Shown in pieces: positions 6,570 to 33,378 of a DNA stretch of 43,057 bases. Source of the DNA: an uncultured Dokdonia sp. (GTDB lineage: Bacteria > Bacteroidota > Bacteroidia > Flavobacteriales > Flavobacteriaceae); assembly GCF_937910895.1 (NCBI RefSeq), contig NZ_CALEMI010000015.1, positions 1-43,057 of the forward strand, in the 5' to 3' direction. The notes beneath the pieces are model-generated. The model was not told where the DNA came from. It was given only the letters and a program-made list of their open reading frames with translations, and made no database searches. Numbering within the stretch: position 1 is the stretch's first letter; every line of letters begins with the position of its first letter. A program made the translations under genes and the position numbers.

Positions 6570-7100
6570 ATGAAAATAATTAGTTACACTTTAACAATAT
6601 TAATTTTTCTAACATTTATTTCTTGCTCAGACGAAGAAACATCGATGAGTCCTGAATTAAATTCAAATTTAGAAACACTTGATTTCTCTTTTTTAGAAAA
6701 CACTATAGATAACCACTATAAAAGTCAAGAAGAAAATATAGTAATAATCAACACATTCTTGAATAATTTTGATAGAGTTTTGATTAACACTCCTATTGAT
6801 GAGTTTCTTGAAGAGGATGTTGATATTGAAACTGTAAATAAAGGTATGTCAACTCTAATTTTATCAGATAGAGAATTATATGATTCTTTTCTGGAATTAA
6901 AAGAAAATAAAATTTCTATTAGTGATATACGTAGAAATTTAAAAGAGTGGAATAATTCTAGTAGAGCTTTATGCATACCAAATATAGAAGCTTGTGCAAG
7001 ATCATTAGCAGTGTATGTCAATTGTTCGCCAAATTGTTTAGCTTGTTGTCTTGCTGGGGTAGGTGTGGAAATTCATTGTTGTACTAGTAATCAACAATAA
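6570..7100 (+). CDS. Small lipoprotein with a cysteine-rich C-terminus, function unknown
   Basis: I do not recognise this 176-residue protein. The N-terminus is a lipoprotein signal (LTFISC, lipobox Cys about residue 19). The middle, about 25-125, is acidic and probably helical. The last 42 residues contain eight cysteines in the pattern C-x6-C-x9-C-x3-C-x2-CC-x9-CC (LCIPNIEAC ... NCSPNCLACC ... HCC), separated by small hydrophobic residues. The paired cysteines suggest disulfides or metal binding outside the cytoplasm. The gene and its flanks are more AT-rich than the neighbours, and it stands alone between the DUF4199 operon and rpmE2, so recent acquisition is possible. Confidence 0.75.
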   Translation: MKIISYTLTILIFLTFISCSDEETSMSPELNSNLETLDFSFLENTIDNHYKSQEENIVIINTFLNNFDRVLINTPIDEFLEEDVDIETVNKGMSTLILSDRELYDSFLELKENKISISDIRRNLKEWNNSSRALCIPNIEACARSLAVYVNCSPNCLACCLAGVGVEIHCCTSNQQ

Positions 7101-24179: not shown

Positions 24180-24318
24180 CTTAGCTTATAAAGTTCCAGA
24201 TATTCTCAAACTTGACCATTTGTGCATACATAAATCGGATGATTTGGTTTTCCGCTTTCGCGAAAGCGGGATCATCTTTCACTACACCTCATGCGTAACT
24301 CTGAGCAATTTTCAGGAT
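24180..24318. repeat. Left direct repeat bracketing the lanthipeptide cluster
   Basis: Aligns without gaps to 31275-31413 in the same orientation: 128 of 139 positions are identical. The longest identical run, about 35 bp, is centred on the palindrome CGCTTTCGCGAAAGCG. Confidence 0.92.
24253..24268. repeat. Dispersed palindrome CGCTTTCGCGAAAGCG, copy 5 (in recG remnant)
   Basis: Part of an 18-bp perfect palindrome CCGCTTTCGCGAAAGCGG at the centre of the left direct repeat. Confidence 0.9.
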
Positions 24319-24457
24319 CTTATGATCACGTCTCAAGTTGAAAAATCTTTGCTTTCAATTCACAATAATAAATTAAATATTAATCTTGATTTTACATTTT
24401 TATATGTGCTCATTTTTTTACATTAAGAGCTTAAATTAATATAACCTGATATTTATT

Positions 24458-24682
24458 ATGAGTAAATTAAATCTTAAGAAAAAAGTAGTATCTGTTTTAA
24501 CAGATGAACAACAAGCTTCAATTAAAGGTGGAGGTACAACCTCTTATTCTAATTGTACTGGTTTCCTCTGCTGTAATCAAAAACCTTGTGTAGTGCTAAC
24601 GGATGGTCCTGCAGCAACGTGTAGAATGCAAGATTGTAGCACTCTTTCAGGTGGAGATGAGACAATTGAAAATGTTAATTAA
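24458..24682 (+). CDS. Class I lanthipeptide precursor 1
   Basis: This 74-residue precursor of a ribosomally made, post-translationally modified peptide has a Bacteroidota class I-type leader, MSKLNLKKKVVSVLTDEQQ then ASIKGG, with the Gly-Gly at 24-25. The core starts GTTSYSNCTGFLCCNQKP and has six Cys (33, 38, 39, 44, 55, 60) and eleven Ser/Thr, several just before Cys as needed for (methyl)lanthionine rings. It is followed 168 bp later by a second precursor, then lanC, a peptidase and a split lanB on the same strand. The last 10 residues (SGGDETIENVN region) carry no Cys and may be a tail. Ring pattern and number of dehydrations cannot be read from sequence. Confidence 0.93.
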   Translation: MSKLNLKKKVVSVLTDEQQASIKGGGTTSYSNCTGFLCCNQKPCVVLTDGPAATCRMQDCSTLSGGDETIENVN

Positions 24683-24850
24683 AACTTTTTCTACCTAAAT
24701 ATTGTTGATATTAGTTTCTGTTAAAATGTTTTTTTTGTTTTGGCTTAGTATTTTTTTTATTCTGACGTTGAAAATGATTAAAAATGTTTGGTTTTATTGA
24801 TTCTATTTGGCATATTAAAGCCTTTAATCAATATTAACTAATTATTTATT

Positions 24851-25078
24851 ATGAGTAAATTAAATCTTAAGAAAAAAGTGGTTTCTGTTTTAACAGATGA
24901 GCAGCAAGCTTCGATTAAAGGAGGAGGAACTACGTCTTATTCTAATTGTACTGGTTTTTTATGTTGTAGCCAAAAACCTTGCGTTCCTGCGTCTGAAGGT
25001 CTTGGAGTTACATGTAGAATGCAACCTGGCTGTAGACCAAATGATACATTTGGACCACCAGAAATTGAAATTCAATAG
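24851..25078 (+). CDS. Class I lanthipeptide precursor 2
   Basis: This 75-residue paralogue of precursor 1 is identical in residues 1-39 (whole leader and core start GTTSYSNCTGFLCC), then differs: SQKPCVPASEGLGVTCRMQ versus NQKPCVVLTDGPAATCRMQ, and the tails are unrelated (ending in PPEIEIQ). The six cysteines are kept at 33, 38, 39, 44, 55 and 61. At the DNA level the identical protein part has about a dozen silent differences, so the copies are not a recent duplication and the shared part is under selection. A hairpin terminator/attenuator lies 11 bp downstream, before lanC. Confidence 0.93.
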   Translation: MSKLNLKKKVVSVLTDEQQASIKGGGTTSYSNCTGFLCCSQKPCVPASEGLGVTCRMQPGCRPNDTFGPPEIEIQ

Positions 25079-25089
25079 ATAAAATCTAA

Positions 25090-25134
25090 AGAGATGTTAG
25101 GAAGATATTTATCTTACTAATATCTCTTTTTTTT
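25090..25134 (+). terminator. Terminator/attenuator between precursors and modification enzymes
   Basis: Arms AGAGATGTTAG and CTAATATCTCT (11 pairs, one G-U) with an inner AAGAT/ATCTT stem, followed by T8. The position between the structural genes and lanC is the usual place for partial termination that keeps precursor mRNA in excess. Confidence 0.85.
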
Positions 25135-25168
25135 AATTTATACTGTTCATACACTCAAATTTAATTTA

Positions 25169-26434
25169 TTGAAAAAGTTAACGGATTCCGTAAAAGAAAA
25201 TATAGAAAAGGAAATTAAACTTATTTCTGATTACTTGTTTTCTTGGGATAAAATAAAAGTAAACAGAAATTCAAATCATATTGGTATTCTTTCTGGTCTC
25301 CCTGGAGTTACATTGGCGTTATTGGACTATCTCCAAGTAGAGCCTTCTACGAACAACAGCCAGAAAAAAATCTTAAAAGAATACCTCCAAAACACATTCA
25401 AAATTCTTGAGAACAGTGAATACATCACCTCTACGTATTGTGATGGTCTATCAGGATATGGTTTTTTTTTATTGAAATTAAAAAGCCATGATTTCATAGA
25501 CGAGAATGATGGAGATTTATTAAATGATATTGATGAGATTTTAAATGATATTGATGATATCCTTCTTGAGCATATAGAAGAATTTTACCAACAAGATAAT
25601 TTGGATATTTTACACGGATTGGTAGGATTAGGACTTTATTTCTTAGAGAGAGAACATACTCTTGGAGTAGATAAAATCACAGAAATAATAATGAGTAAAG
25701 TTTTCAGAACCGAAGAAGGCTATGTGTATTGGAGAAAATATGATAAATACGATAATTACAAGTCGGTTATAGACTTGGGGAATGCTCACGGAATGGGAGC
25801 AAATATCTTTTTTCTCACTAAGGTATTGTCAAAAACACCAGAGAACGAAGAAATTAAAGAAATTATAGACAGTGCAATAGGCTTTTTTCTAGATAACTCA
25901 CAAGAAATTACCGATGAGATCTATTGTTATTATCCTTTGAAAATAGAAGCTGATGCTTATGATGCAAACTCTTTTGAGCCTTCAAATTCTAGATTAGGAT
26001 GGTGTTATGGTGATTTAGGTACTTTATACACTTTGTTGATGGCTAGCAAACACATTGATAATAAAAAATACTACGACATCATCGTGGATAAATTAGCACA
26101 CGTTGCAACTAGAACGTATGACAAAGAAGGCTTTATCATAGACGCAGGGTTTTGCCACGGGACTAGCGGAATTGCTTTGTTATTTAATAATGTATATGAT
26201 ATAACTGGGAAAGATGTTTTTTGGAAAACCGCCACATACTGGCTAGAGCAAACTCTAATTAAAAAAGATAATACACAGCCAGAAGGATATGTTAATTACG
26301 GATTTGTTATTGAAAACTCTGACGAAAAAAATATTTCAATTTTAGAAGGACTTGCTGGTTTATTAGTAAGTTATCTTAAATTTTTACATCCAGGTGCTAC
26401 AATATCAGAGGAGTTGCTCATGATAAAATATTAA
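25169..26434 (+). CDS. lanC: Lanthionine synthetase C family protein (LanC cyclase)
   Basis: This 421-residue zinc enzyme adds Cys thiols to dehydrated Ser/Thr to form (methyl)lanthionine rings. All NisC-type active-site residues are visible: Asp146 (LDILHGLVG), His207 (GNAHGMG), and the zinc ligands Cys279 (GWCYGDLG) and Cys329-His330 (GFCHGTSG). The length is normal. The start is a TTG at 25169: the frame is open back to 25118 but holds no ATG or GTG, and the first internal Met is far into the protein. It follows the attenuator hairpin and is 7 bp from the peptidase gene. Confidence 0.94.
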   Translation: MKKLTDSVKENIEKEIKLISDYLFSWDKIKVNRNSNHIGILSGLPGVTLALLDYLQVEPSTNNSQKKILKEYLQNTFKILENSEYITSTYCDGLSGYGFFLLKLKSHDFIDENDGDLLNDIDEILNDIDDILLEHIEEFYQQDNLDILHGLVGLGLYFLEREHTLGVDKITEIIMSKVFRTEEGYVYWRKYDKYDNYKSVIDLGNAHGMGANIFFLTKVLSKTPENEEIKEIIDSAIGFFLDNSQEITDEIYCYYPLKIEADAYDANSFEPSNSRLGWCYGDLGTLYTLLMASKHIDNKKYYDIIVDKLAHVATRTYDKEGFIIDAGFCHGTSGIALLFNNVYDITGKDVFWKTATYWLEQTLIKKDNTQPEGYVNYGFVIENSDEKNISILEGLAGLLVSYLKFLHPGATISEELLMIKY

Positions 26435-26441
26435 TAATTGT

Positions 26442-28142
26442 ATGATGTCTAAAAGTATCTATATTTTCATAATTGTATTTCTTTATTCAACCTTAAATAT
26501 TTCTGCTTCAGAGAAACAAGAAGTCAGCGATATATCAAAATACAAACAATTTGGTCTTGTTTGGGGGCTACTAAAATATCACCATTCAGAAGTAAGTAAC
26601 GGTAAATATGATTGGGATCAAGTATTTATTGAAAATATTGATCTTTTAGGAGCAATAAAAACTCAAAAAGATCTCAATACATTTCTGTTCAATTTTATTT
26701 CTTCATTAAAGGAGTCAAAGATTAAACGTGCTAGTGAAAAGGAGGGGTTATTAAAAAATAATTATGATTATAAATGGATTAATTCATACCCATTTGATGA
26801 AAGCTTAACTAAAAAATTAGAAGCATTAAGAGATAACACAAATATTAATGATTTTTATGTTTCAACAGGAAGACTTAGTAATATACCTACTTTTAAAAAT
26901 GAAAAGGGGGTAAAAGAATTTGATTATAAAATTAAAAGCCACAGATTATTATTGCTTTTTAGTTTTTGGAGCTGCATACAGTATCATTACGTAAATAAAT
27001 ATTTGATGGATGATAACTGGTATGAGCTATTAGATGGTTATATTGAAAATTTTATATATGATCATTCTAAATTGGAATTTGAAATATTAAAATCTACATT
27101 AATTGCATCTCTTGACGATTCTCATGCATACTACGTATCACCAGTAGTAAATGATTCTTTATTCAAATATAAACCTTCCTTTGGTGTAAGAAATGTGAAT
27201 GATACGCTAGTAATTACGGCTCTTTATAATAAAAAACAAGCAGCGAGAGATGGTATTGAATTAGGAGATCAAATCCTTGAAATTGAGAATGATGATATTA
27301 AAACGAGTCTTGCAAAAAAGATAAAACCAATACTTTCAACATCAAATAACGTTTTTTTGAAAAAATGGACGCGTTGGCTATTTTTTAACCCAAGTGATTC
27401 TATTAAAGTTAAAATAAAGAAGAAAAATAAAACTATTAAAACTCAATATCTTCATCTTTATGAAAATTTTGAAGTAGAAGACTATGTTTCATTAAAATCT
27501 ACTTCAGGTATTGAAAATAAATGGCAGTTTATTAAGCCTGATATAGGGTATATTAGTTTGGCTTCCATCACAAAAAAAGAATTAGATAATGCCTTTAAAG
27601 AATTTTCAACAACAAAAGGGATCATAATTGATTTAAGAAATTATCCTAAGACTATTTCGGAAGATGATATAACAAAACATATTTATCCTGAAAGAAGAAG
27701 ATTTATAAAGGTACTTTTTCCTATTCAGGATAGACCATCTATGGTACAATTTGATGAAGCGCCACTTAATTTTATAAAAGATCCTTTTATGAGTGGTAGC
27801 AGGAATTCAGATTATTATAAGGGAGAAATCATTCTTTTAGTAAATCACACAACACAAAGTAAAGCAGAATATATTGGGATGGCGATACAAGCTTCACCTA
27901 ATTGTACAACTATTGGAGAAAGTACAGCAGGTTCTGTAATGAATATTGCAACATTTACAATGCCAGATCAAACAAATGTAAACTTTACTAGTTTAGGCGC
28001 TTTTTATCCAGATGGAACTGGAGCTCAAAGAAATGGTTTAAAAATAGATTATCAGGTTCATGAATCGACTTCAGACTTTATTAAAGATCAATATATAGTT
28101 AAAGGAATAGAGTTGATAGAATCTGAAAAAAATCCTAACTAA
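26442..28142 (+). CDS. Exported S41-family peptidase in the lanthipeptide cluster
   Basis: This 566-residue protein has a signal peptide or N-terminal anchor (SIYIFIIVFLYSTLNISAS). An N-terminal region of about 200 residues has no assigned fold. A PDZ-like segment (about 245-300; ARDGIELGDQILEIENDDI) and a C-terminal S41/tail-specific-protease-like domain (about 360-560) follow. The likely nucleophile is Ser473 (TTQSKAEYIG). Where C-terminal processing proteases have a catalytic Lys it reads GESTAGSV (492-499), as in the IRBP/tricorn-like branch without the Lys. It lies 7 bp after lanC and 3 bp before lanB, clearly one operon. Leader or core trimming outside the cytoplasm, or self-protection, are possible roles; activity is unproven. 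Confidence 0.82.
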   Translation: MMSKSIYIFIIVFLYSTLNISASEKQEVSDISKYKQFGLVWGLLKYHHSEVSNGKYDWDQVFIENIDLLGAIKTQKDLNTFLFNFISSLKESKIKRASEKEGLLKNNYDYKWINSYPFDESLTKKLEALRDNTNINDFYVSTGRLSNIPTFKNEKGVKEFDYKIKSHRLLLLFSFWSCIQYHYVNKYLMDDNWYELLDGYIENFIYDHSKLEFEILKSTLIASLDDSHAYYVSPVVNDSLFKYKPSFGVRNVNDTLVITALYNKKQAARDGIELGDQILEIENDDIKTSLAKKIKPILSTSNNVFLKKWTRWLFFNPSDSIKVKIKKKNKTIKTQYLHLYENFEVEDYVSLKSTSGIENKWQFIKPDIGYISLASITKKELDNAFKEFSTTKGIIIDLRNYPKTISEDDITKHIYPERRRFIKVLFPIQDRPSMVQFDEAPLNFIKDPFMSGSRNSDYYKGEIILLVNHTTQSKAEYIGMAIQASPNCTTIGESTAGSVMNIATFTMPDQTNVNFTSLGAFYPDGTGAQRNGLKIDYQVHESTSDFIKDQYIVKGIELIESEKNPN

Positions 28143-28145
28143 TTT

Positions 28146-30356
28146 ATGTATAAAACTTTTGACACGTATGTGTTGCGCACACCTCTTTTACCCATAGATT
28201 TTCTGATTGAACTCACTCAAAAAAAAATGGTTTCAGATGATCAATTAAAAGAATTATTTTCTAACCCTTTAGTGAAGGAATCTATTTATTTAGCATCACC
28301 AATACTTTTTAAAGAGATTAAAAAATGGTCGCAAGATAAAAATCCCGATACAAAAGGTAAAATACGAAACTCTTTTTTAAAATATTTATCTAGAATTTCA
28401 TCAAGACCAACTCCATTCGGATTGTTTTCAGGTTGCTGTATAGGTGTTTTTGATACGTCTAATACTATTAGACGCAATAATTCCTTAAATAAGAGACACA
28501 CGAGGTTGGATATGAATTTAACAGGAATCATAGTTAAACATATACAAGAAATTCCTTCAGTACGAGAACATCTATTGTTTTATCCTAATAATAGCTTGTA
28601 TGAAATAGGAGACTTAGTACGATTTATTGAAGCTAAATACAATAAAAAATTAATTTTAGTAAATAAATTAATAGAAGTAGAGGCTTCTGATTATTTAAAG
28701 GAGGTTATCGATTTTTGTTCTGATGGAAAAAAAATAAACGAACTTTCAGAAATTCTTGTTTCACCCGAAATAACGTTTGAAGATGCAAAAGAATTTATTA
28801 CAGAATTAATAGATGAGCAGATTTTAGTTGGTGAGATAGAGCAGACGGTCTCTGGAATAGAAAACTTAGATCATATCTTATCTGTTTTAAGTCAAATAGA
28901 TGATTCGACACCACTATATAAGACACTTAGTTCTATAAAGGATAAGCTAAATGAAATGGATAGTAACGTTATAAATAGCATCGCTATTTATAATGAAATA
29001 TTAAAATTGCTAGATAGTCTAGGGATTACGATTGATGAAAAATTCGTTTTTCAAACAGACCTTAAAATAGGAACTTCTCACAATACATTATCAAAAGAAA
29101 TTAAAAAAGATATAGATGAAGGTCTCATAGCAATTAATAAAATTGCTACTTTAAAAAATCAAAATACCAACGAAAATTTATCGAGTTTTAAAAAAGCATT
29201 TTACGATAGATATGAAACAAAAGAAGTTCCTTTAGCTTTAGTGCTTGATAAAGAAATGGGACTAGGATATCCAGCTAATTCTGGAGAAGGAGACGTTAAC
29301 CAACTTATTGACGATATTGTCTTTGGGAACTCTTCAAAAACATCTTCTAGTACTACTTTGTCGTCATTTGATATGATGCTTCTCAATAAAGCTATTGAAG
29401 CCGATAAAACAGCCAAAAAAATTATAGAAATTAAAGAAGAAGACCTTCCTTCAATAGACGGTAATTGGTTAGACCTTCCAGATACCTTTTCTACCATTGC
29501 CCAAATTGTTAATATAGAAGACAAATATCAAGTACTTTTAAATTTTTTTTCAGGATCAAGCGCAGGAAACCTATTTGGTAGATTCTGTCATGGAGACAAT
29601 AGTATAAAGCAATTTGTGGAAGAAATTATAAATTTTGAAGATGATTTAAATCCAGATAAAATTTTAGCAGAGATTGTACACTTGCCCGAAGATAGATTAG
29701 GTAATGTTTTAATGAGACCTTCATTACGTACTTATGAAATACCTTTCTTGTCAAGATCAACAAAAGAAAATAACTATCAGATTCCTGTCAGTGATATTTT
29801 AATTTCAATCAGAAATAATCGCATATTTCTTAGATCAAAGAAATATAATAAAGAGGTTTGTCCAAAACTAACTACTGCACATAGTTTTAACCAAAGTACC
29901 CTTCCTGCTTATCGCTTCTTATGTGATATGCAATCCCTAGATAAAAGAAATATATTAGTATTTAATTGGGATGGATTATCCAATGTGCGAACGTTCTTTC
30001 CTAGAATTATTTATAAGAACATTGTTTTATCTTCTGCTAAATGGAAAATTACATCAGATAAAATGAAATCGCTACTTGAAGAAGAAGATGATGACCTTCT
30101 TCTTCAAAAAACAAAAACATTTATAGACGATCATGAACTTCCTGATATGGTCTATCTAGCAGAAGGAGATAATAAATTACTGATAAATTTGAGTAACCTG
30201 TCTAGTATAAAAATGCTACTCAGTTTAGTGAAAACTAAAAATGCTTTTCTTCTAGAAGAATTTCTTTTCTCTGGAAATGCAATATGTAAAGATGATGAGA
30301 ACAAGAACTATGTTAATGAGTTTGTCTTTTCATTTTATAAAGATGTAATACAATAG
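28146..30356 (+). CDS. Lantibiotic dehydratase, N-terminal glutamylation domain (split LanB, part 1)
   Basis: This 736-residue protein corresponds to the N-terminal roughly 700 residues of NisB-type dehydratases, which use glutamyl-tRNA to glutamylate Ser/Thr of the precursor. It opens YKTFDTYVLRTPLLP and has the family motif RISSRPTPFGLFSG (about 83-96), followed by the long helical region with LDMNLTG; later RPSLRTYEIP and SAKW segments match the family. The C-terminal elimination domain is absent here and is encoded by the next gene 13 bp downstream. The start ATG is 3 bp after the peptidase stop, so the genes are probably translationally coupled. Confidence 0.93.
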   Translation: MYKTFDTYVLRTPLLPIDFLIELTQKKMVSDDQLKELFSNPLVKESIYLASPILFKEIKKWSQDKNPDTKGKIRNSFLKYLSRISSRPTPFGLFSGCCIGVFDTSNTIRRNNSLNKRHTRLDMNLTGIIVKHIQEIPSVREHLLFYPNNSLYEIGDLVRFIEAKYNKKLILVNKLIEVEASDYLKEVIDFCSDGKKINELSEILVSPEITFEDAKEFITELIDEQILVGEIEQTVSGIENLDHILSVLSQIDDSTPLYKTLSSIKDKLNEMDSNVINSIAIYNEILKLLDSLGITIDEKFVFQTDLKIGTSHNTLSKEIKKDIDEGLIAINKIATLKNQNTNENLSSFKKAFYDRYETKEVPLALVLDKEMGLGYPANSGEGDVNQLIDDIVFGNSSKTSSSTTLSSFDMMLLNKAIEADKTAKKIIEIKEEDLPSIDGNWLDLPDTFSTIAQIVNIEDKYQVLLNFFSGSSAGNLFGRFCHGDNSIKQFVEEIINFEDDLNPDKILAEIVHLPEDRLGNVLMRPSLRTYEIPFLSRSTKENNYQIPVSDILISIRNNRIFLRSKKYNKEVCPKLTTAHSFNQSTLPAYRFLCDMQSLDKRNILVFNWDGLSNVRTFFPRIIYKNIVLSSAKWKITSDKMKSLLEEEDDDLLLQKTKTFIDDHELPDMVYLAEGDNKLLINLSNLSSIKMLLSLVKTKNAFLLEEFLFSGNAICKDDENKNYVNEFVFSFYKDVIQ

Positions 30357-30369
30357 AAAATATTTATTG

Positions 30370-31245
30370 ATGAGTTCAATTCCAAAACGGGTATTCATTT
30401 TAGGTGATGAATGGATTTTTTTTAAAATATATACAGGCGTTAAGTTTGCAGACACACTACTTACTGACCACTTAATGCCATTAATTAATACTTGGAAAAG
30501 TAAAAATTATATAGAGAAGTGGTTTTTTATACGATATTATGATCCTGAATTTCACCTTAGAGTTAGATTTCTTGTTTCAGACAAAGAGAATCTTACTCTA
30601 ATTATTAAAGATATGAACGTATTGTTTTCAGCGCTTATTCAACAGGATTTTGTGTGGAAATTGCAAACAGATACCTATGTAAGAGAATTAGAAAGATACG
30701 GAATACAAAAAATTGATCATGCTGAAACTGTTTTCTGTCATGATAGTGAAATGATTGTAAGTGTTTTAAAGCATATTGAAAACGCAGGCAATCAAAGTCT
30801 TCGCTGGTTGACAGGACTGTTAATTATAGAGGACATTCTAGATGCATTTAACTTAACTATTGAAGAGAAAAAAGACCTAATGGAACAATACATCACTTTC
30901 TTTAGTGATGAAATGAGTTACGATAAGTTTCTTAAAAGACAACTCAGTTTGAAGTATCGTAACAATAAACGTGAAATAAATAGTTTTTTAACACGAAATG
31001 CAGCGCATCAAGCATTGATTGATATAGTTTCTTACAAAAAAGAGAATACGCATCAATCCATGCAGGAAATAGTAAATTCAGAATTAAGTTCTGAATATCG
31101 AGGAGAATTGATTTTTAGCTTATCACACATGAGTCTCAATAGGTTGTATAGGACAAAAAGTAGAAAAAATGAATTCGTAAGTTACCATTTACTACTTTAC
31201 TATTACGAATCTAAAATTGCTCAATTAAAACATAGTAAGAAGTAA
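30370..31245 (+). CDS. Thiopeptide-type elimination domain protein (split LanB, part 2)
   Basis: This 291-residue protein matches the SpaB C-terminal/Lant_dehydr_C family, which removes glutamate from glutamylated Ser/Thr to give dehydroalanine/dehydrobutyrine. Recognisable parts are WIFFKIYTGVKFADTLL near the start, WFFIRYYDPEFHLRVRF, RELERYG, and the end LSHMSLNRLYRTKSRKNEFVSYHLLLYYYE. The ATG at 30370 is preferred over the TTG three bases earlier. It is the last gene of the cluster; its stop is 30 bp from the recG repeat, with no transporter gene after it. A stand-alone elimination domain is typical of thiopeptide and some Bacteroidota lanthipeptide systems. Confidence 0.92.
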   Translation: MSSIPKRVFILGDEWIFFKIYTGVKFADTLLTDHLMPLINTWKSKNYIEKWFFIRYYDPEFHLRVRFLVSDKENLTLIIKDMNVLFSALIQQDFVWKLQTDTYVRELERYGIQKIDHAETVFCHDSEMIVSVLKHIENAGNQSLRWLTGLLIIEDILDAFNLTIEEKKDLMEQYITFFSDEMSYDKFLKRQLSLKYRNNKREINSFLTRNAAHQALIDIVSYKKENTHQSMQEIVNSELSSEYRGELIFSLSHMSLNRLYRTKSRKNEFVSYHLLLYYYESKIAQLKHSKK

Positions 31246-31274: not shown

Positions 31275-31413
31275 CTTAGCTTATAAAACTCCAGATATTC
31301 TTAAATTTGACCATTTGTGCATACATGAATCGGATAATTTGGTTTTCCGCTTTCGCGAAAGCGGGATCATCCTTCACCACTCCCCATGCGTAACTCCGAG
31401 CAATTTTCAGGAT
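31275..31413. repeat. Right direct repeat bracketing the lanthipeptide cluster (recG 3' end)
   Basis: The last 46 codons of intact recG plus one base; partner of 24180-24318 at an offset of exactly 7095 bp. Confidence 0.92.
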
Positions 31414-33378
31414 ATCATTATCCCGAATGATGTCGCCTATTTTAAGATGTAAGGCTCCACTTTGTTGTGTACCGGTGATATCTCCAGGGCCTCTAAGCCT
31501 TAAATCGACTTCTGCGATCTCAAAACCATCGTTGGTGCGTGTCATCGTTTCCAAACGGACTTTAGAGTCACTAGAGAGCTTAAAACTGGTCATCAGGATA
31601 CAATAACTTTGCTCCGCACCACGACCCACGCGCCCTCGTAATTGATGCAACTGACTCAATCCAAAACGCTCTGCACTTTCAATAATCATTACCGAAGCAT
31701 TCGGCACATTCACGCCGACTTCGATCACGGTGGTGGCGACCATGATTTGCGTTTCGCCTTTAATGAAGCGTTGCATTTCATACTCCTTATCGGCAGCTTT
31801 CATCTTCCCGTGTACGATGGAAATCTGATACTTGGGGAGCGGGAATTCTCTTGAAATACTCTCGTATCCATCCATCAAATCTTTGTAATCCATCGCCTCC
31901 GATTCTTGGATTAATGGGTACACAATATAGACCTGTCTGCCCTTCTTAATTTCGTCCCGAATAAAGGCAAAAACTTTAAGCCGATTGGCATCATATCTGT
32001 GCACTGTTTTAATCGATTTTCGACCGGGTGGAAGTTCGTCAATAACGGACACGTCGAGGTCTCCATAAACAGTCATCGCAAGCGTTCGCGGAATAGGAGT
32101 AGCTGTCATCACCAACACGTGTGGTGGGTACTCATTTTTGTGCCATAACTTGCTTCGCTGCTTGACACCAAAACGGTGTTGCTCATCAATAATCGCAAGT
32201 CCTAAATTCTTAAATTTCACTTTATCTTCGAGCAAGGCATGAGTACCAATTAAGATGTTTAATTCGCCATTTTCGAGTTGCTCATGAATACTACGTCTAT
32301 CTGAAGTTTTGGTTGAACCTGTGAGTAATGAGATTCTGGTATTCAATGGCTTGCATAATTCAGCTAATCCGTTATAGTGTTGGACTGACAAAATTTCAGT
32401 CGGTGCCATTAAGCAAGCCTGAAATCCGTTGTCAAGGGCTATTAACATTGATAATAGCGCGACAATGGTCTTTCCAGATCCTACATCTCCCTGCAACAAC
32501 CGATTCATTTGCGCATTAGAGCCCAAATCAGCACGAATTTCTTTAAGAACTCTTTTCTGAGCACCTGTTAATTCAAAGGGTAAATGTTCGTTGTAGAAGG
32601 TATTAAAATTAGCTCCAATATTTTCAAAGGGATAGCCTTTTATTTTGGTTTTATGCATTCGGTTTTTGAATGCTAATTGCAGTTGAATATAGAAAAATTC
32701 TTCGAATTTTAAGCGATATTGTGCCTTTGCTAAATCAGCTTGTGATTGTGGAAAATGAATGTTAAAAAGCGCTTGATTTTTAGGCATTAATTTCAAGGCT
32801 TCAATGATGGGTTTTGAGAGGCTTTCATGTAGGTGATTTTTGGCTTCTAGAAAGAGCGTTTGCATGAGGGTGTTTACCACCTTATTGGTGATGCCTTTAT
32901 TGCCTAATTTTTCTGTACTTGGATAGACGGGTTGCATGGCACTTCGCAAACTTTTTTCGTGATCGGCGAGGAGTTCCATTTCGGGGTGCGGCATGGAAAA
33001 ACTCCCATTAAAATAATTAGTTTTTCCAAATATCACATAAGTCGTATTGAGTTTGATACTTTCCCGAATCCACTTCTGACCTCTAAACCAAACGAGCTCC
33101 ATAGTACCTCCATCATCTTTAAAAGTTGCGACGAGACGTCTCCCTTTTCCCTCAATCATTTTTAAACTCGTCACTTTCCCGATCACTTGTACATCGGCAC
33201 TATTGCGTTCTAATTCTGAAATGGTATAATACCGCGTCCGATCGATATATCGATTGGGAAAGAGATGGATGAGGTCTTGATAGGTATGAATCCCTAACTC
33301 CGCACGCAACAGATCGGCTCTGTTCGGGCCAACGCCTTTGAGGTAGTCGATAGGTGTCTGAAGGAAGGTGGGATTCAT
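31276..33378 (-). CDS. recG: ATP-dependent DNA helicase RecG
   Basis: This 700-residue helicase remodels stalled replication forks and Holliday junctions. The N-terminal wedge/OB domain (about 60-160) has the helix-hairpin start TPIDYLKGVGPNRADLL. The helicase core has Walker A LLQGDVGSGKT, the DEQHR box in IIDEQHRFGVKQR, TATPIPRTLAM, VYPLIQESE and the motif VI region QLRGRVGRG. The C-terminus is intact and encodes AFAKA from a palindrome copy. The 3' end is duplicated as a broken remnant at 24180-24332, on the far side of the lanthipeptide cluster. Confidence 0.97.
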   Translation of the reverse strand: MNPTFLQTPIDYLKGVGPNRADLLRAELGIHTYQDLIHLFPNRYIDRTRYYTISELERNSADVQVIGKVTSLKMIEGKGRRLVATFKDDGGTMELVWFRGQKWIRESIKLNTTYVIFGKTNYFNGSFSMPHPEMELLADHEKSLRSAMQPVYPSTEKLGNKGITNKVVNTLMQTLFLEAKNHLHESLSKPIIEALKLMPKNQALFNIHFPQSQADLAKAQYRLKFEEFFYIQLQLAFKNRMHKTKIKGYPFENIGANFNTFYNEHLPFELTGAQKRVLKEIRADLGSNAQMNRLLQGDVGSGKTIVALLSMLIALDNGFQACLMAPTEILSVQHYNGLAELCKPLNTRISLLTGSTKTSDRRSIHEQLENGELNILIGTHALLEDKVKFKNLGLAIIDEQHRFGVKQRSKLWHKNEYPPHVLVMTATPIPRTLAMTVYGDLDVSVIDELPPGRKSIKTVHRYDANRLKVFAFIRDEIKKGRQVYIVYPLIQESEAMDYKDLMDGYESISREFPLPKYQISIVHGKMKAADKEYEMQRFIKGETQIMVATTVIEVGVNVPNASVMIIESAERFGLSQLHQLRGRVGRGAEQSYCILMTSFKLSSDSKVRLETMTRTNDGFEIAEVDLRLRGPGDITGTQQSGALHLKIGDIIRDNDILKIARSYAWGVVKDDPAFAKAENQIIRFMYAQMVKFKNIWSFIS
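31348..31363. repeat. Dispersed palindrome CGCTTTCGCGAAAGCG, copy 6 (in recG)
   Basis: Centre of the right direct repeat; translated AFAKA, the third reading frame used by this element in the window. Confidence 0.9.

Follow-up and report, generated by a model that had tools for sequence, protein, structure and literature searches.

Among the described systems closest to the locus treated here is the pinensin cluster, which belongs to Chitinophaga pinensis. This cluster is named by Walker et al. (2020; PMC7268733) and, likened by description, shares with our locus a split LanB dehydratase in a class I lanthipeptide system of the Bacteroidetes; split LanB proteins in such systems are already in print there. 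According to the accessible part of the same paper, Bacteroidetes leaders follow the pattern LxLxKx5L, often with a double-glycine (GG) end and a C39 protease (Walker et al., 2020). Our locus lies in the window, by which we mean the whole analyzed stretch of 43,057 nucleotides (nt; contig NZ_CALEMI010000015.1, assembly GCF_937910895.1) from an uncultured Dokdonia sp. of the Flavobacteriaceae, and consists of two precursor genes, lanC, a gene for a predicted exported S41 peptidase, and the two parts of lanB (Table 1). With the LxLxKx5L class I lanthipeptides it shares, as far as these are described in that source, the leader LNLKKKVVSVL, the GG end, LanC, and the split LanB, and its relatives also share the C39 exporter; it differs from them by its TTSYSxC(T/S)xxxCCxxxxC core, by the S41 gene between lanC and lanB_N, and by the missing exporter (PMC7268733). 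All six open reading frames (ORFs) are intact. Judging from the family matches to every gene of the pathway, whose scores lie far beyond what chance should give, this is a real, intact-looking class I operon from a flavobacterium, as an earlier note made from the letters alone had proposed, and the recurrent S41 gene seems to make it a new variant.

The order precursor-LanC-S41-LanB_N-LanB_C recurs in Flavobacterium daemonense (L125), F. salmonis (L128), Flavobacterium sp. JAS (L133), and a further Flavobacterium genome, G638 (L215). Thus all five clusters with a TTSYS core, from five species including the window, carry an S41 gene between lanC and lanB_N, and the stretch TTSYSxC(T/S)xxxCCxxxxC and six Cys are found in all six precursors (the two of the window and the four related ones). 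Of 20 other lan loci that have both LanC and LanB, none showed an S41 gene between lanC and lanB; 19 of them come from a LanC survey and were searched with an S41 profile, and for L216 the window S41 served as the query. The clusters are mutually related, so that these counts are not independent trials. An S41-like ORF stands elsewhere in the fetched stretch of L092 and L095, and L216, which lacks S41, combines a similar leader (19 of 26 residues by eye) with a different core. Outside this count, the Dyadobacter locus L163 has an S41 of 27% identity, with LanB parts 3.7 kb to one side and LanC-like genes 5 kb to the other on the opposite strand. A scan of contigs from 84,980 species with the S41 alignment gave 322 relatives, and among the best 80 three stand in the same operon order (L125, L128, and L133). 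Going beyond the earlier note, we take the S41 gene, on this sequence comparison, to mark a recurrent sub-family with the TTSYSxC core. A precursor profile matched 6 of 398 Flavobacterium genomes, four of them with at least 86 bits (the genomes of L125, L128, and L133, and G638) and two weakly, mostly in the leader (G562 and G795); it found no match in 17 further genomes from the genus of the window, and over 395 genomes of the order its matches were the two window precursors and a weak one (G1108, 34 bits). Genome searches scored four candidates per genome in the S41 and LanC surveys and about 14–15 in the precursor survey, and their counts are therefore lower bounds. A comparison of L125 with L128 gives 66–68% identity for precursor, LanC, and S41 and 81–85% for LanB_N and LanB_C, the change of level falling near the S41/LanB_N border, and LanB_N identities among the five S41 clusters go down to 46%. 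Upstream of the F. daemonense cluster (L125, 4067–4267 and 4503–4703) there are also two Cys-rich peptides of 66 amino acids (aa) with GG leaders and identical sequence.

The modification enzymes are those of a class I system: a dehydratase in two parts, a separate LanC with zinc-ligand motifs, and precursors with a leader and a core rich in Ser, Thr, and Cys. LanC was aligned to the solved LanC-like chain 8byk (E 7e-18) with its WCYG and FCHG segments matching, which we take, from NisC, to be the zinc ligands. LanB_N was aligned to the solved dehydratase 9g04 (E 2e-57) and to NisB (4wd9, E 3e-18), and LanB_C to the C-terminal part of 9g04 (E 1e-17). The separate glutamylation and elimination proteins of the earlier note match two families on two ORFs. 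The emphasis on the split as a special feature is not supported. A search of 397 Flavobacteriaceae genomes gave LanC relatives in 20 of them, at 30 places including the window; the surroundings of the 29 other places were fetched, and LanB was called by comparison with the window proteins. A LanB_N ORF was seen at 19 of the 29, with a separate LanB_C of 291–337 aa at 18 of these and one fused LanB (L117, 1068 aa); none was seen at the other 10, of which L091 lies near a contig end. A split LanB is the rule in the Flavobacteriaceae, and we rule it out as a novelty.

Both precursors lie above the cut-off of the leader family NF038153 lant_leader_L1a (28.2 bits for lanA1 and 28.0 bits for lanA2; cut-off 22), which agrees with the two six-Cys GG-leader peptides noticed earlier, and their cores hold 11 or 9 Ser/Thr beside the 6 Cys. 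Between lanA1 and lanA2 there are 6 silent and no replacement differences in codons 1–25, 8 silent and 1 replacement in codons 26–45, and 1 silent and 7 replacement in codons 46–58. Leader and N-terminal core of the twins are thus held constant at the protein level, with the C-terminal core diverging, and the pair resembles a duplication followed by divergence. The earlier note had offered a two-peptide or a two-variant product. Because each of the four related clusters (L125, L128, L133, and L215) has a single precursor and the twins are duplicates, the two-peptide reading is unsupported, and a single product in two variants is more likely. A publication with the TTSYSxC core motif was not found in the open-access text of PubMed Central (PMC), in line with the earlier remark that the core motif was not recognized from a described product.

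The S41 gene is separated from lanC by 7 nt and from lanB_N by 3 nt, and lanB_N from lanB_C by 13 nt, which are the 3–13 bp of the earlier note. Its predicted product has an N-terminal hydrophobic stretch with helices, a weak PDZ-like part, and a protease core (PF03572, 62 bits, cut-off 24; PDZ under the cut-off), and no lipobox was seen by eye. The putative catalytic residues Ser473, His228, and Glu476 are invariant in all 37 rows of an alignment of the window with 36 of 80 fetched loci, from which L166 was dropped for a stop and others to limit its size. The predicted structure (pLDDT 91.8, pTM 0.88) has its best PDB matches by Foldseek in 4ghn, CtpA and other C-terminal processing peptidases (CTPs), and CPAF. 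As a classical CTP it was rejected, with 37.8 bits in TIGR00225 against a cut-off of 218.6, and the stretch where the catalytic Lys of CTPs should presumably lie reads GESTAGS, so that a Ser-Lys dyad is not found. It does show a T-x-S-x-x-E stretch with a partner His (T471, S473, E476, and H228) like that of the nisin resistance protein NSR. In SaNSR, which cleaves nisin with a Ser236/His98 dyad (PMC4698656; PMC4828448), these two residues and the TASSAEM stretch are in agreement with Ser473 and His228 of the window protein (PMC4698656). From what these sources give, SaNSR (PDB 4y68) and the window protein are alike in belonging to family S41, in the T-x-S-x-x-E stretch, in Ser and His, and in an extracytoplasmic place, which is predicted for ours; they differ in that SaNSR is a 36.2-kDa protein and ours has 566 aa, a weak PDZ-like part, and a place in a producer-type operon. 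NSR 4y68 is a weak sequence match (E 0.008), and this value, the PDZ-like part, and the Foldseek ranking given below argue against calling the protein a true NSR.

In the LanB_N tree, made without the fused L117 LanB (length filter), the five S41 clusters group together as a clade (100/100). In the S41 tree, the five cluster proteins are ungrouped and interleaved with stand-alone S41s, mostly of Flavobacterium; the cluster state needs 5 changes, at least 4 of them forced by strong branches, and 500 of 500 shuffles are as low. This tree holds 5 cluster rows (one from G638) and 22 of 77 other loci, leaving out L127 (broken ORF), L144, L145, L149, and, for size, the 51 more distant L154–L204. The plainest account of these sequences would be that S41 joined the cluster once and was afterwards exchanged with resident copies. 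No precursor match was found in any of 11 genomes with stand-alone S41s of 41–58% identity; as controls, the profile recovers three genomes from which it was partly built and, in addition, G638, which had no part in building it. An S41 that is useful without a precursor would fit protection better than maturation. The stand-alone S41 of Flavobacterium sp. 245 (L131, 7970–9683) stands between genes that by eye look GH16- and GH2-like, and such genes flank the whole lan cluster of F. salmonis (L128/L220) in an order not exactly that of L131.

Also beyond the earlier note, the cluster is an AT-rich insert of 7.1 kb between duplicated recG ends. The direct repeat copies are 151 nt long and 90% identical, and they are the only two long copies in the window's own genome among the 40 of 987 candidates that were scored. 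G+C is 29.5% between the copies, compared with 41.9% for recG, 36.0% for the DNA on the left side, and 33.3% beyond recG on the right side. Two genomes of the same genus, G398 and G410, have the empty site, with the lipoprotein gene and recG convergent, their stops overlapping or adjacent, and no insert; in G206, recG adjoins a weak relative of the lipoprotein gene, G412 has other DNA at the insert site, and G408 has other DNA after the lipoprotein gene, with its contig ending before recG. The right copy is 88.7% and the left copy 86.1% identical to G398 and G410. This arrangement would fit a single crossover of a circle carrying a recG end, and equally a site-specific insertion by an enzyme since lost or acting in trans. 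No recombinase was found among the six main ORFs between the repeats (the smaller ORFs were not searched), and among plasmids LanB_N matched 46 records, all at <60% identity, so that no plasmid source emerged. A short palindrome around CGCTTTCGCGAAAGCG (window 31345–31375) is dispersed over many contigs. The palindrome TTTCGCGAAAGCG was rejected as the cause of the flanking repeat, being dispersed with 35 further short matches among the 40 candidates, against two long copies of the repeat.

A C39-ABC exporter and HlyD follow LanB_C in L125, L128, and L215, and in L133 the contig ends inside the ABC gene with HlyD not visible. The window insert holds no C39-ABC exporter, and the right repeat starts 29 nt after LanB_C. 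The accessible text of Walker et al. (2020; PMC7268733) says ‘often’ of C39 with GG leaders, so that such an exporter is not a strict requirement. Two C39-ABC/HlyD pairs do occur elsewhere in the same genome, one on contig C31 within another class I lan cluster and one on C85, with ABC proteins 63–65% identical to the exporters of L125 and L128, and for this reason export of the product in trans is possible. The genome has three LanB_N loci, three LanC loci, and eight L1a leader matches. Its second class I cluster (L085, C31:16001–36000) includes several small GG precursors, LanC, split LanB, and C39-ABC/HlyD; a third LanC/LanB locus (L086, C66:30000–48500) has LanB_C on the opposite strand; and the pair on C85 (L205, 9981–13465) adjoins, by eye, an apparent ATP-grasp peptide-modification gene.

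We favor the reading of the locus as a horizontally acquired class I lanthipeptide operon with export in trans and an S41 peptidase for self-protection, and as a whole we give it an even chance. LanB_N would glutamylate and LanB_C would then eliminate, so that Ser and Thr of both GG-leader precursors are dehydrated; LanC would close thioether rings on the six conserved Cys; and a C39-type ABC exporter from another place in the genome would cut the leader at GG and export the product, the exporter pair of the relatives having been lost from the window copy or never present in it. The periplasmic S41 would cut re-entering product, as NSR cuts nisin, and stand-alone copies in non-producers would be resistance genes. 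Hydrolases in bacterial clusters for ribosomally synthesized and post-translationally modified peptides (RiPPs) that inactivate their own product include MccF and the lasso-peptide isopeptidases, to which the proposed role is alike in this respect, with different folds and products. For the S41 role taken by itself, self-protection by proteolysis comes, in our analysis, just short of an even chance and is favored over maturation, because no LanI- or LanFEG-like match was found among the insert's main ORFs in family searches, the cluster S41s interleave with stand-alone ones, no precursor was found in 11 genomes with the latter, and the protein has some likeness to NSR. Non-producers have acquired immunity genes in a comparable way in the case of nisin E, where 20 of 44 genomes carry immunity subsets without the peptide genes, as given in the accessible part of PMC9958725. 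More tentatively, at clearly less than even chance, we propose that the producer is protected by a dedicated in-operon S41 and that the same gene circulates as stand-alone resistance in non-producing flavobacteria via exchange between cluster and resident copies.

Several observations weigh against this reading. In the LanC tree, made without the second L117 LanC row, the S41 clusters are not one clade, and the S41-less L216 joins L215 (98/81). S41 relatives are widespread (40 of 299 Flavobacteriaceae genomes, our own included), neither LanC nor LanB was found within ~1.5 kb of S41 at any of 29 other loci of the first survey, and 76 of the best 80 S41 loci show no lan gene over fetched stretches of up to 8 kb. 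Among the best 50 of 477 Foldseek matches of the model there is no NSR, and NSR is described without a PDZ part in the available text of PMC4698656; known lantibiotic producers rely on LanI and LanFEG for their own protection, and NSR is known from non-producers, according to the part of PMC4828448 at hand. The S41 gene also sits among the biosynthetic genes, as that of a maturation enzyme would, and it might then trim an N-terminal stub or the variable C-terminal tail after removal of the leader by C39. For such an enzyme speak its position 7 and 3 nt from its neighbors, its presence in all five TTSYS clusters and in none of the 20 other loci, even L216 with its similar leader, the single identity level that precursor, LanC, and S41 share between L125 and L128 apart from the LanB parts, and the reported conservation of S41-family peptidases in fungal dikaritin clusters, where S41 is encoded with a RiPP cluster as here, although in fungi and with other chemistry (PMC6514808, as far as accessible). 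We nevertheless regard maturation as unlikely: the 11 genomes without a precursor match have S41s that branch among those of the clusters, the C39 domain already explains leader removal, a search of open-access PMC text listed no paper on a bacterial S41 maturation protease, and a review of RiPP leader proteases names, in its accessible part, families S8 and S9 and not S41 (PMC10885120).

Four of the nine near stand-alone S41 loci that were read adjoin apparent sugar-degradation genes and others household genes, which again tells against protection. Since the S41 family is common without lan genes and stands beside sugar-degradation genes, a general role, recruited to the cluster more than once, is possible, in which S41 is an envelope or nutritional peptidase carried along and at times swapped with resident copies by homologous recombination. 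Its wide distribution, the lack of a clade on the S41 tree, and the GH16- and GH2-like genes shared by L131 and F. salmonis would suit this, but the same operon position is kept in all five core-family clusters with LanB_N identity down to 46%, and at that position the 20 other lan loci have no S41; we hold a general role to be improbable. About as improbable, in our judgment, is that the window cluster is a decaying, silent remnant without export genes. A C39-ABC gene follows LanB_C in four of four related clusters and is absent here, where the repeat comes so soon after LanB_C, and against decay stand the six intact ORFs, the 14 silent changes and 1 replacement of the twins in codons 1–45, and the exporters elsewhere in the genome.

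A hairpin followed by a U-run lies between lanA2 and lanC (−20.1 kcal/mol, z −4.10; none of 200 shuffles equally stable). Hairpins of unrelated sequence, for which there are no shuffle controls, occupy the same gap in four of four related clusters and in L216. The hairpin would possibly fit an attenuator that keeps precursor mRNA in excess; it was not among the calls of a consensus terminator scan. A scan for sigma-70 type promoters gave fewer sites than shuffles (27 vs 40.6), and the Bacteroidetes promoter motif TAnnTTTG was absent from the three gaps that adjoin the precursors. Elsewhere in the window (6570–7100), a lipoprotein-like ORF has a strongly Cys-rich C-terminus.

Table 1. Features of the lanthipeptide locus and its boundaries, in window coordinates.
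Feature	Position	Strand	Description
Left copy of the recG 3' end, left insert boundary	24180..24330		151 nt; relic adjoining the lipoprotein gene
lanA1, precursor	24458..24682	+	74 aa; six Cys; leader LNLKKKVVSVL...GG; core GTTSYSNCTGFLCC...
lanA2, precursor	24851..25078	+	75 aa; six Cys; diverged duplicate of lanA1
Hairpin and U-run between lanA2 and lanC	25088..25134	+	possible attenuator
lanC, cyclase	25169..26434	+	421 aa; TTG start; PF05147 140 bits
Exported S41 peptidase (predicted)	26442..28142	+	566 aa; putative Ser473, His228, Glu476
lanB_N, glutamylation protein of split dehydratase	28146..30356	+	736 aa; PF04738 447 bits
lanB_C, elimination protein of split dehydratase	30370..31245	+	291 aa from ATG; PF14028 205 bits, TIGR03891 197 bits
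Right repeat copy, recG 3' end, right insert boundary	31275..31425		recG at 31276-33378, minus strand, 700 aa

The core family of five species is a useful target, because pinensins were the sole lanthipeptides isolated from Bacteroidetes when Walker et al. (2020) wrote, as stated in the accessible part of their paper (PMC7268733). The S41 gene gives a way to test how Gram-negative lanthipeptide producers with no evident LanI or LanFEG withstand their own product. Should S41 prove protective, stand-alone copies would point to resistance already in place in related bacteria.

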